Origin: a virus
DNA: 64,000 nt
Reading direction: 5' to 3' (one strand)
IMG/VR virus record: IMGVR_UViG_3300008448_000009
Location: 55,282 to 119,281 of that record
Part shown: positions 25,596 to 37,684 of the stretch, one piece after another
Layout: each line of letters begins with the position of its first letter
Numbering within the stretch: position 1 is the first letter of the stretch
Program-made: the position numbers and the translations under genes
The notes under the pieces: generated by a model
What the model was told of the DNA's origin: nothing
The model's database searches: none
What the model saw: only the letters and a program-made list of their open reading frames with translations

Positions 25596-25925
25596 TTATT
25601 CTACAATTTTTTCAACATAAGTACAAATTTCTCCAGATACAAACCCTTTCTCTAATAGCAAAGGTAATGATGCTGGTTTACACCATGCATATACCAACCA
25701 ATTTGAATATTTTGTTTTAACATATTCCCATCTTGTATCCCATAACATACGGAATATACCTTTGCGTCTATGGTCGTCATGAACCCATGCGTCTAAGAAT
25801 TTAATCTTTTTATTTTCTTCCCTTTCCATGTAAATATGACCAACAATTTCACCGTTAATCATAGCAATCCATGTTTCTAGTTTTTGACCATTGCTTTTTA
25901 AATGTACTATTTTAATATCATTCAT
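25596..25925 (-). CDS. GNAT-family N-acetyltransferase
   Basis: A 109-residue protein with a GNAT fold. HDDHRRKGIFRML is the acetyl-CoA-binding motif A (RRKGIF equals RxxGxG/A), following a strand with LDAWV. The C-terminal LLLEKGFV segment is typical of the fold. Substrate not predictable. Overlaps the end of the small membrane protein gene upstream. Confidence 0.75.
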   Translation of the reverse strand: MNDIKIVHLKSNGQKLETWIAMINGEIVGHIYMEREENKKIKFLDAWVHDDHRRKGIFRMLWDTRWEYVKTKYSNWLVYAWCKPASLPLLLEKGFVSGEICTYVEKIVE

Positions 25926-34956: not shown

Positions 34957-34982
34957 AAGGGCCGATTGGCCCTTATTTTTTT
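34957..34982. terminator. Bidirectional terminator between convergent genes
   Basis: AAGGGCC-GATT-GGCCCTT hairpin with T run on the plus strand; it overlaps the end of the convergent acetyltransferase gene. Confidence 0.8.
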
Positions 34983-35389
34983 CCTGTGTATTCATGACTG
35001 AAACAAATTCTCTTGTTATCAAAATAATGTTCTTTGAACATATTTTTAACAGACACATCTTTTCTTAATTTTTTATTTTTGCTAGTGGCAACCCATAAAT
35101 CAGAATGTTCTCGGTAATATCCCATCCTAGGGTGTGCGGTTCTTGAAAAATACCTATGACCTTCATCTATGTGTATTTGAGCGATAGCATCAGAAAATCT
35201 AACACCAATACCCATACCTTGAAAATCTGGCAATATAACTGTTCTATGCCCTCTCCACGCGTTTTTTAACGTACCACTAGGCATAGTTATAGCAGCCCCA
35301 AACGCCACAACATGTCCTTCCCATACACCAACATAGCATCTGGCCGCTTTATTCACATTTCCATCTAAATAATGGTGGTCTTTAAACAT
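34973..35389 (-). CDS. GNAT acetyltransferase domain of a split ABC-ATPase/acetyltransferase
   Basis: A 138-residue frame from ATG 35389. VILPDFQGMGIGVRFSDAIA is the acetyl-CoA motif; HHYLDGNVNKAARC, AWRGHR and FSRTAHPRMGYYREHS are the hallmark blocks of acetyltransferase domains fused to ABC ATPases (the COG2401 type). Read without the ATG, the frame extends upstream to the T9 run at 35444-35452, adding IKLDIYRTNYDSWG, which is a typical start of this domain. The real product is therefore probably a fusion with the ATPase at 35365-36054. Confidence 0.75.
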   Translation of the reverse strand: MFKDHHYLDGNVNKAARCYVGVWEGHVVAFGAAITMPSGTLKNAWRGHRTVILPDFQGMGIGVRFSDAIAQIHIDEGHRYFSRTAHPRMGYYREHSDLWVATSKNKKLRKDVSVKNMFKEHYFDNKRICFSHEYTGKK

Positions 35390-36054
35390 TCCCCAACTAT
35401 CATAGTTTGTGCGATATATGTCAAGTTTGATTTGTGGGCGGGCAAAAAAAAACCGTCCATCAGTTCTCCTGTGTCCGTATCAATAACCCAATCAGGTTCC
35501 AACCAATTCAATATATCACGGTGGCATGTTGATATAACCACATTTTCAATTTCGTTATTTTTGATATACCTAGATAACGATACACTGGCCGCTTTAGCCA
35601 CAGCTCTATCAACCACACTACTAAACTCATCAATGACAGCACCAGTTTTAATTTTACGCGCTAAATCAGCTCTAAACTTTTCTCCGTTAGATAACACATT
35701 GTAAGGTTTGTACCATGAAGGTACAGAATTCAACCCGACACTACCTAATTTATTTATGGCTTCATCTGGTTCATCAAAATGTGATACTATAGATTTATTT
35801 GGGTCCCATTGTGGGGTTTCTTCAATTCCAAAGTTTTTTAAAAGTGTTGATTTACCAGAACCACTAGAACCAACAATAACACCTAGTTTAAATTTTTTAG
35901 GAATACTAGCTGGCAATTGCCATGGATAAAATTTTGAAGTACCGTCAAAAGCGCAATCAAACGCTTTTTCACTAGCAGCAATAAAATCATCACGTTCCAC
36001 ACTTGAAGTAAGAGGTGTGGTCTCTTTTGTTAGTTTTTCCATGAAATGAAACAT
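35365..36054 (-). CDS. ABC-type ATPase domain of a split ABC-ATPase/acetyltransferase
   Basis: A 229-residue frame. Walker A GSSGSGKST (62-70), ABC signature LSNGE (121-125), Walker B AVIDEF (139-144) and the H-loop His in STCHRD (about 178). No membrane partner, so a soluble ABC ATPase. After residue about 200 a T9 run is followed by 26 residues that look like out-of-frame translation; a one-base slip would lead into the acetyltransferase. Start is uncertain: ATG 36054 lies very close to a late-type box, and ATG 36042 is also possible. Confidence 0.78.
   Translation of the reverse strand: MFHFMEKLTKETTPLTSSVERDDFIAASEKAFDCAFDGTSKFYPWQLPASIPKKFKLGVIVGSSGSGKSTLLKNFGIEETPQWDPNKSIVSHFDEPDEAINKLGSVGLNSVPSWYKPYNVLSNGEKFRADLARKIKTGAVIDEFSSVVDRAVAKAASVSLSRYIKNNEIENVVISTCHRDILNWLEPDWVIDTDTGELMDGFFLPAHKSNLTYIAQTMIVGECLKTTII
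35444..35452 (-). other. T9 run at the ATPase/acetyltransferase junction
   Basis: Coding strand GGTTTTTTTTTGCCC. Adding or re-reading one T leads from the ATPase frame into the acetyltransferase frame without a stop. Confidence 0.6.
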
Positions 36055-36631: not shown

Positions 36632-37684
36632 TTAATTTATTAAACCTTTTATTTTATTTAACACTTCTTCAATACCAGTAATCTCAACTTCACCGTAATC
36701 TATCGACTGTAAATCATTCGCAGATATTCTAGTAATGTCTGATTCGAATTCATGAAACCTAGGTGTTGAATCACTAACCATAACTACATGAGTACCAACT
36801 CCCCACGCTAACCAAGACAACCCAGAACTTACACCCATGTGAAATTCTGCATGTTTGATTAAACCAGCAACTTTCTTTAAATCTGCTTCACCAGACATAT
36901 CGATAACACCTTTCAAATTACTTTTTTCCTTGGATATTGTCAATACTTCATAGTCATTATCAATTAAAAAATCAACAACTGTTTGCCATCCGTTTTCAGC
37001 TCTCCAATGTTTTTCTGGATGACTACCAAACTCTGATAACGTAACGTACTTACGAACTATTCTTCTAGGTTCATATTTACATAACTCAGATAAATCTGGT
37101 CTAAATTCCATGGGTGTTAATCCTAAACATTCACTGGCAACTCGTTGTAACGGATGTTCGTTGGTTTTTATTGGTGAATAAATCAAAGAATCATCATTGG
37201 CCGCACCAACATAGTATTGCGCGTACACGTTGGCTATGGGTGTATTCGGTGCCACAAACAATATGTTAGGATATGAATCAACCAACAAATGATTATGAAA
37301 CGTTGAACAAATAACAGTACATTCATGTTTACATCTAAAATCTTCTACATAAGGAATCCACGCAATAGTATCACCCAACGCATACGCATCTATTTTTATG
37401 AACACGACTTTATGATACGGGTCAAATTCATCTTCAAAAACAATTTTATCGTTTTCATCAAAGATTCGTATTAACCAATCAGTATACCATTGTCGAATAT
37501 TACTTTCAATTGTTTCGTTGGTTTTACAATAACCTTCAGCTATTTTAATCAACAAACCGTTGTCTAATTTTTTGTTAAATTCCACCCTATAGGTTTTTAT
37601 ATCATCCCCTTGGATTGTGACCCTAGGAGCGTTTGCAACCTTTGGTAGGGTGGTTAAATAACTTACTTTAAAACTATTACTCAT
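36632..37684 (-). CDS. TibC-like glycosyltransferase (GT9/heptosyltransferase fold)
   Basis: A 350-residue protein resembling autotransporter O-heptosyltransferases of the Aah/TibC type. Key stretches: KIDAYALGDTIAWIPYVEDF (acceptor side Rossmann half), ICSTFHNHLL, then HPEKHWRAENGWQTVVDFL and the nucleotide-sugar site HMGVSSGLSWLAWGVGTHVVMVSDST. The family transfers heptose to Ser/Thr of surface proteins. In a phage it could decorate virion proteins or host surface proteins; target not predictable. Transcribed just upstream of unknown small genes. Confidence 0.75.
   Translation of the reverse strand: MSNSFKVSYLTTLPKVANAPRVTIQGDDIKTYRVEFNKKLDNGLLIKIAEGYCKTNETIESNIRQWYTDWLIRIFDENDKIVFEDEFDPYHKVVFIKIDAYALGDTIAWIPYVEDFRCKHECTVICSTFHNHLLVDSYPNILFVAPNTPIANVYAQYYVGAANDDSLIYSPIKTNEHPLQRVASECLGLTPMEFRPDLSELCKYEPRRIVRKYVTLSEFGSHPEKHWRAENGWQTVVDFLIDNDYEVLTISKEKSNLKGVIDMSGEADLKKVAGLIKHAEFHMGVSSGLSWLAWGVGTHVVMVSDSTPRFHEFESDITRISANDLQSIDYGEVEITGIEEVLNKIKGLIN

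Follow-up and report, generated by a model that had tools for sequence, protein, structure and literature searches.

The ABC ATPase-GNAT pair was reportedly first described in a 2013 paper. In the available part of a later report (PMC7824862), an ABC ATPase-coupled GNAT, with Tenacibaculum phage pT24 as an example, is predicted to acylate a DNA base, and neither recoding nor isoforms are mentioned. The pT24 protein is a relative of the fusion described here (tblastn). This member (L157:3571) reads in frame past the junction of the two domains, carries an in-frame TGA inside the GNAT domain and is annotated as two CDS; the TGA may represent an error, a pseudogene or readthrough. COG2401 consists of an ABC ATPase fused to an acetyltransferase and, likened by description only, has the same domain order; no mention of it was found in a partial literature search. 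A further family, PHROG 11143, is an uncharacterised ABC ATPase-GNAT fusion. The Mom protein of phage Mu has in common with the GNAT reported here the GNAT superfamily, a phage genome and a proposed role in DNA modification.

To our knowledge, few families of cellular or phage genes are known to use programmed frameshifting. In dnaX (tau/gamma), one gene gives short and long ATPase-based isoforms at an A/T-rich slip heptamer, as is proposed here. The two genes are unrelated however, and the dnaX shift gives the short form, whereas in the clade studied here the shift would give the long form and no hairpin was found. In prfB (RF2) there is a stop codon in the A site and the shift rescues translation. 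A GeneTack survey found the direction of the shift to be conserved among orthologs that use frameshifting (PMC3711429).

The window analysed here, a 64,000-nt stretch of DNA, is part of a 119-kb IMG/VR record that belongs to a T4-like phage, as seen from a major head protein and a terminase (PHROGs) and a prohead protease (Pfam). An ATPase open reading frame and a GNAT frame overlap on the minus strand (Table 1), where the A9 of the plus strand at 35444–35452 reads as T9. The GNAT frame is the −1 frame after GG-T9-G (35452–35444) and is reached if GGT TTT TTT TTG GCC is re-read one base back. It stays open from the T run down to 34973, with a stop upstream at 35482. The overlap of the two frames at the T9 run had been reported in the original prediction, and its sequence, coordinates and motifs are as given there. 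Besides the motifs in Table 1, the translated ATPase frame also contains the H-loop His. A second small GNAT protein of 109 aa is found elsewhere in the window at 25596–25925 (−), and a glycosyltransferase family 9-like protein is found at 36632–37684 (−), two genes upstream of the ATPase.

Table 1. Coordinates of the features of the ATPase-GNAT locus in the window.
Feature	Position	Strand	Basis or remark
Zero-frame open reading frame, predicted short isoform, 229 aa	35365..36054	−	ABC-type ATPase domain, residues ~1–201, plus a tail of 24–28 residues
Walker A, GSSGSGKST	35845..35871	−	From translation; invariant across alignments
ABC signature, LSNGE	35680..35694	−	Translation and alignment
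Walker B, VIDEF, then SSVVDR D-loop region	35623..35637	−	Translation and alignment
Candidate slip site, GGT TTT TTT TTG	35443..35454	−	T9 = 35452–35444
Zero-frame heptamers U_UUU_UUU and U_UUU_UUG	35452–35446 and 35449–35443	−	Within the overlap of the reading frames
−1 frame GNAT acetyltransferase domain (ARPQIKLD...TGKK)	34973..35443	−	Pfam, PHROG, GNAT fold match with Z up to 14.4
Dual-coded stretch: GNAT N-terminus RPQIKLDIYRTNYDSWGMFKDHHY (−1 frame) and short-isoform tail ...KSNLTYIAQTMIVGECLKTTII (zero frame)	35368..35442	−	
Stop codon of the predicted short isoform	35365..35367	−	+73 nt from a conserved GNAT Arg, inside the HHYL motif
Internal ATG, GNAT frame	35387..35389	−	Downstream of the conserved RP and W; ATG in 34/37 T9-clade members

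The ATPase frame gives a Pfam match to ABC_tran (28.1 bits, cut-off 25) and the GNAT frame a match to Acetyltransf_1 (23.4 bits, cut-off 20.7). Both halves match the 357-position profile of PHROG 11143 in order and over its full length, the ATPase at positions 10–194 (E-value = 3.5e-60) and the GNAT at positions 200–351 (E-value = 1.7e-41). Thus the break falls exactly at the domain junction. The profile represents one continuous fusion, whereas the halves in the window lie in two frames. A structure model of the fusion of an in-frame relative (L126) has a mean pLDDT of 89.5; its first part matches the ABC ATPase MJ0796 (Z = 13.3) and its second part matches GNATs (Z up to 14.4, to 1y9k). With AlphaFold2, the ATPase of the short form is modelled well and its tail is disordered (pLDDT 45–56). 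The GNAT sequence of the window shows no match to the Pfam Mom model PF25680 at E ≤ 0.1, and the link with Mom put forward in the original prediction stays speculative. Mom is also absent among the 50 PDB matches listed for the fold, which says nothing on kinship.

Two viral-contig scans gave 150 loci. The close relatives, taken as those with at least 60% identity to the fusion of the window, comprise 43 nonredundant members. T9 with the −1 offset is found in 37 of the 43 (80 loci), as in the window. One further member shows T8 at −1, three show A_AAT_TTT at −1, and in two, L023 and L126, a T10 run joins the halves in one frame. The match of L126 was obtained once more as L127, from another metagenome. 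Immediately after a −1 slip L126 would encounter TAA, whereas L023 would be read further before its −1 stop. The split between the ATPase and the GNAT is confirmed as real and not due to chance or error, because the −1 offset with T9 recurs in 37 nonredundant relatives from many separate metagenomes. The original prediction had left a choice between slippage that makes both a short ATPase and the full fusion, and one T missing in the assembly. The conservation of T9 and the −1 offset strongly supports slippage, and it refutes the missing T as a general explanation, as do the four members that keep −1 with a different slip sequence.

Several isolate phages also show the split at −1, with other motifs. 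These are Thomasclavelia phage TR-TP1, Streptococcus phages MismyG and Javan141 and Lactococcus phage P335, as well as Oenococcus phage Vinitor-27 and Enterococcus phage 9184 (A_AAA_AAG). The split isolate-phage members are annotated as two genes. Downstream stimulatory RNA structure is common in −1 frameshift genes but is not obligatory. None was seen in the 37 T9 sequences when compared with dinucleotide shuffles (mean z about −0.6 to +0.15), and the T9 slip may therefore rest on the T run itself.

After further viral and genome contig scans the family set consists of 320 loci in 228 clusters at 90%. Among the 228 nonredundant relatives, 132 are fused in one open reading frame, 92 are split at −1, two at +1 and two otherwise (0). 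That the fusion exists as a single protein, as the original prediction stated, is borne out by these 132 members and by PHROG 11143. Random indels would yield +1 about as frequently as −1. An in-frame X_XXZ_ZZN heptamer, sought where the slip must occur, is present in 84 of the 92 nonredundant −1 members as against 76 of 1638 control windows of the same size from the same open reading frames (4.6%, Fisher p about 1e-87). A run of 9 surrounds the heptamer in 53 of the 84, and the full heptamer is missing in 8 of the 92.

The −1 motifs vary by lineage and include T-runs, A-runs, A_AAT_TTT and A_AAG_GGC. Lineages with A-runs include Bathyarchaeota, Gilliamella, Gallionella and Tenacibaculum. Candidatus Bathyarchaeota MAGs carry several family copies per genome, nearly all of them −1 splits on A-runs (L254, L256–L261, L263–L266, L269, L271–L273, L275, L279, L282, L283, L287, L316). 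Members with A_AAT_TTT (L014, L017, L128, L166, L270) belong partly to the T9 clade and partly to other lineages, and their runs are all too short for RNA polymerase to slip on. A few members (L195, L260) resemble sequence errors when set against near-identical kin. A search of 2 × 398 genomes showed very few family members.

The fused members, which are read in one frame, also display a conserved sequence at the junction. In most of them it follows the constant pattern [ACT]GG (A/G)GG NNN CTT. A Shine-Dalgarno sequence (SD) followed by N3 and CTT, GTT or GAA A is found at the junction of 86 of 102 fused genes, as against 6.8 ± 2.2 expected from synonymous resampling with the codon usage of each gene; resampling ignores the shared ancestry among clusters up to 90% identical, which makes z-scores too large, though the pattern is seen between very distant groups as well. 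At the main position (−6), all 52 of 52 Leu codons are CTT, even where GC3 exceeds 0.6 and leucine is otherwise encoded mainly by CTG and CTC. Pairing with the anti-SD is strongest 8–9 nt upstream of the shift codon, and the spacer is 3 nt. Thus AGGGGG or GGAGG, 3 nt and CTT reproduce the spacing of the prfB stimulator. The relatives differ from prfB in that they have no A-site stop, the next codon being CGG, CAA, AGG, CAG, TGG, CAT, TGT or CGA, and their +1 shift would end translation early. The window's own gene has no prfB-like site.

A second fused group carries CAA AAA AAA AAT AGA, where a −1 slip would lead immediately to TAG. This is found in 27 of 28 members vs. 12.9 expected, and the layout is shared with dnaX. 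By the criteria used, 15 of the 132 fused members show no clear signal. A subgroup (L307, L328, L332, L232, L235, L359, L363, L366, L373) has GAC TG[TC] CTT C as its junction and no more than a weak SD match, and CTT is conserved there all the same. Internal initiation from the SD-like motif was considered for the in-frame relatives and rejected, since the junctions, on inspection, lack usual GNAT-frame start codons at a usable distance. A +1 shift fits better, because CTT is invariant and the +1 frame is open. As a control, the −1 frame of the +1 group, unlike its +1 frame, has stops at the expected level (60 vs. 61.8). Thus the in-frame relatives appear to be recoded too, by a +1 prfB-like site or an A-run with TAG, which lay beyond what the first reading of the window could have seen.

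The end of the ATPase frame had been described in the original prediction as unrelated residues. This is wrong, since the 24-residue tail has been kept free of stops and shows more conservation than the GNAT frame would demand. The short-product frame is +1 relative to the GNAT frame. It is open to +70 in all members of all four groups, with expected values from synonymous resampling of 48.9 for the +1 group (87/87), 12.6 for the A-run group (28/28), 42.3 for the −1 group (92/92) and 7.8 for the fourth group (15/15). In most members the short product stops at +73, within the HHYL codons; 17 of 87 members of the +1 group stop outside +70 to +76, and one +1 clade (e.g. L037–L060) stops later than +73. 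The tail ends in [IV][TI]I in 59 of 70 members of the +1 group (24.9 expected) and in 83 of 92 of the −1 group (46.5 expected). The A-run/TAG group shows no enrichment of IxI (8/28 vs. 15.5 expected).

A new viral scan provided a held-out set of 59 new nonredundant clusters, for which the criteria had been fixed before. The junction motif is present in 46 (2.5 ± 1.6 expected) and the short frame is open in all 59 (35.8 expected). The stop is exactly at +73 in 54 (21.9 expected), and the [IV][TI]I end is found in 49 (17.3 expected). Members that miss the motif mostly show CTT with a weaker SD, or are A-run members. The ATPase tail therefore looks like a selected overlapping-frame coding sequence. 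Taken as a whole, the interpretation offered in the original prediction is partly supported.

From sequence conservation, frame statistics, codon statistics and fold we infer that the gene is almost certainly intact and that programmed frameshifting very probably gives both a short ATPase with a tail and a full ATPase-GNAT. Zero-frame translation would produce the short ATPase of 229 aa, ending in the dual-coded tail. A share of the ribosomes, at whatever efficiency, would slip back one base at GGU UUU UUU UUG and produce an ATPase-GNAT of ~360 aa. The property conserved in the family would be the making of both isoforms, and the slip device would be replaceable. Some relatives would slip by −1, either on runs of T or of A or on mixed heptamers. 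In others the fusion would be the in-frame product, which a +1 shift at SD-N3-CTT would cut short; in A-run relatives a −1 slip straight into TAG would do so. ABC ATPases function as dimers, and for this reason the short form probably sets the number of GNAT domains per dimer.

Programmed transcriptional realignment could also account for two products, though this is judged doubtful. RNA polymerase would slip on the T9, so that the number of U in the mRNAs ranged from 8 to 10 and some of the mRNAs encoded the fusion; there would again be two isoforms, but no shift by the ribosome. Polymerase can in general slip on runs as long as T9 and A9, and runs of 9 accompany most of the heptamers. There is precedent in dnaX, which relies on transcriptional realignment or on ribosomal shifting depending on the species (PMC3711429). 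Against this, −1 is kept with A_AAT_TTT or with runs of 4–7, both inside and outside the T9 clade, and the offset is consistently −1 though realignment tolerates either direction (PMC3711429). The SD-N3-CTT site of most in-frame members, moreover, makes sense only for a ribosome. Since polymerase slippage is not open to members with A_AAT_TTT, a shift by the ribosome is the simplest device that all could share. At T9, slippage by the ribosome and slippage by the polymerase are both possible.

Three further explanations were weighed. It is very unlikely that two separate proteins are made by translational coupling, with the ATPase ending at 35367, the GNAT starting at the ATG at 35389 and no fusion. 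The ATG does overlap the ATPase stop and is widely kept in the T9 clade, but the same Met is present in fused relatives (L037, L138) and is hence explained by protein structure. A start there would remove the first strand of the GNAT fold and would leave the conserved slippery heptamers unexplained. The reason for rejecting this internal start is that conservation of the GNAT frame extends upstream past the ATG (RPxI...W, with R, P and W invariant or nearly so). A degenerating gene, with an indel at a hypermutable run, or a phase-variable one of the kind seen in contingency loci, is highly improbable. The length of the T run does vary in the clade (T8, T9, T10), but T9 predominates and lengths are not spread over all frames, both frames are conserved, and substitutes that are not homopolymers retain the same offset. 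A missing T, by which the gene would really be a single in-frame fusion, is almost certainly not the explanation. Homopolymers are error-prone, in-frame relatives with T10 exist, and the error-like loci mentioned above look like examples of such a fault; but T9 and the same offset recur over 80 loci, and isolate phages are split at −1 at other motifs. Programmed frameshifting is thus the explanation retained here.

A tree built from 142 members places the T9 clade within a larger, well supported group of +1 members. At least 12 changes among the three architectures (−1 split, +1 site, A-run/TAG) are counted, an approximate figure on a tree from a quick search with 47 weakly supported forks, with changes counted without direction. 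The family, which extends over phages, bacteria and archaea, probably always makes a short and a long isoform from one gene, with the overlapping-frame tail conserved, by a recoding device that would have been exchanged many times with the direction and the default product flipping.

A gene with a ParB_N domain (Pfam) is found directly upstream in 30 of 55 family loci scanned. It precedes the ATPase-GNAT in most non-T9 lineages, often close to the terminase (e.g. L152–L155, L159, L162, L325–L327), and was not seen next door in the T9 phages. Genes found downstream encode a formyltransferase (3 of 54), a CoA transferase, an aspartate decarboxylase and, once, Mom (L325, L328, L329 and others). 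These are possible clues to the acyl donor or to the modification. With the prediction of others and the gene context combined, the complex probably acts on DNA, perhaps by acylating a base under control of the ATPase.

In a partial literature search no earlier report of frameshifting in the ATPase-GNAT family was found. Annotations at present show two genes, one gene or a gap at such loci, and none includes the short isoform. If the exchange of devices is true, a −1 slip, an RF2-like +1 shift and a slip into a stop would have replaced one another with two proteins held constant. Depending on the lineage, it seems that either a +1 or a −1 device serves at one orthologous junction for the same pair of products. 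With the product constant, one can ask what selects the device, for example the host ribosome, Shine-Dalgarno use or codon usage. In the +1 members, sites of the RF2 type without a stop codon would occur outside prfB. The Bathyarchaeota members would add further cases to the few −1 frameshifts that have been suspected in archaea (PMC5009743). If the base-acylating prediction is true, the ratio of the isoforms would be a control point of a phage DNA-modification system.
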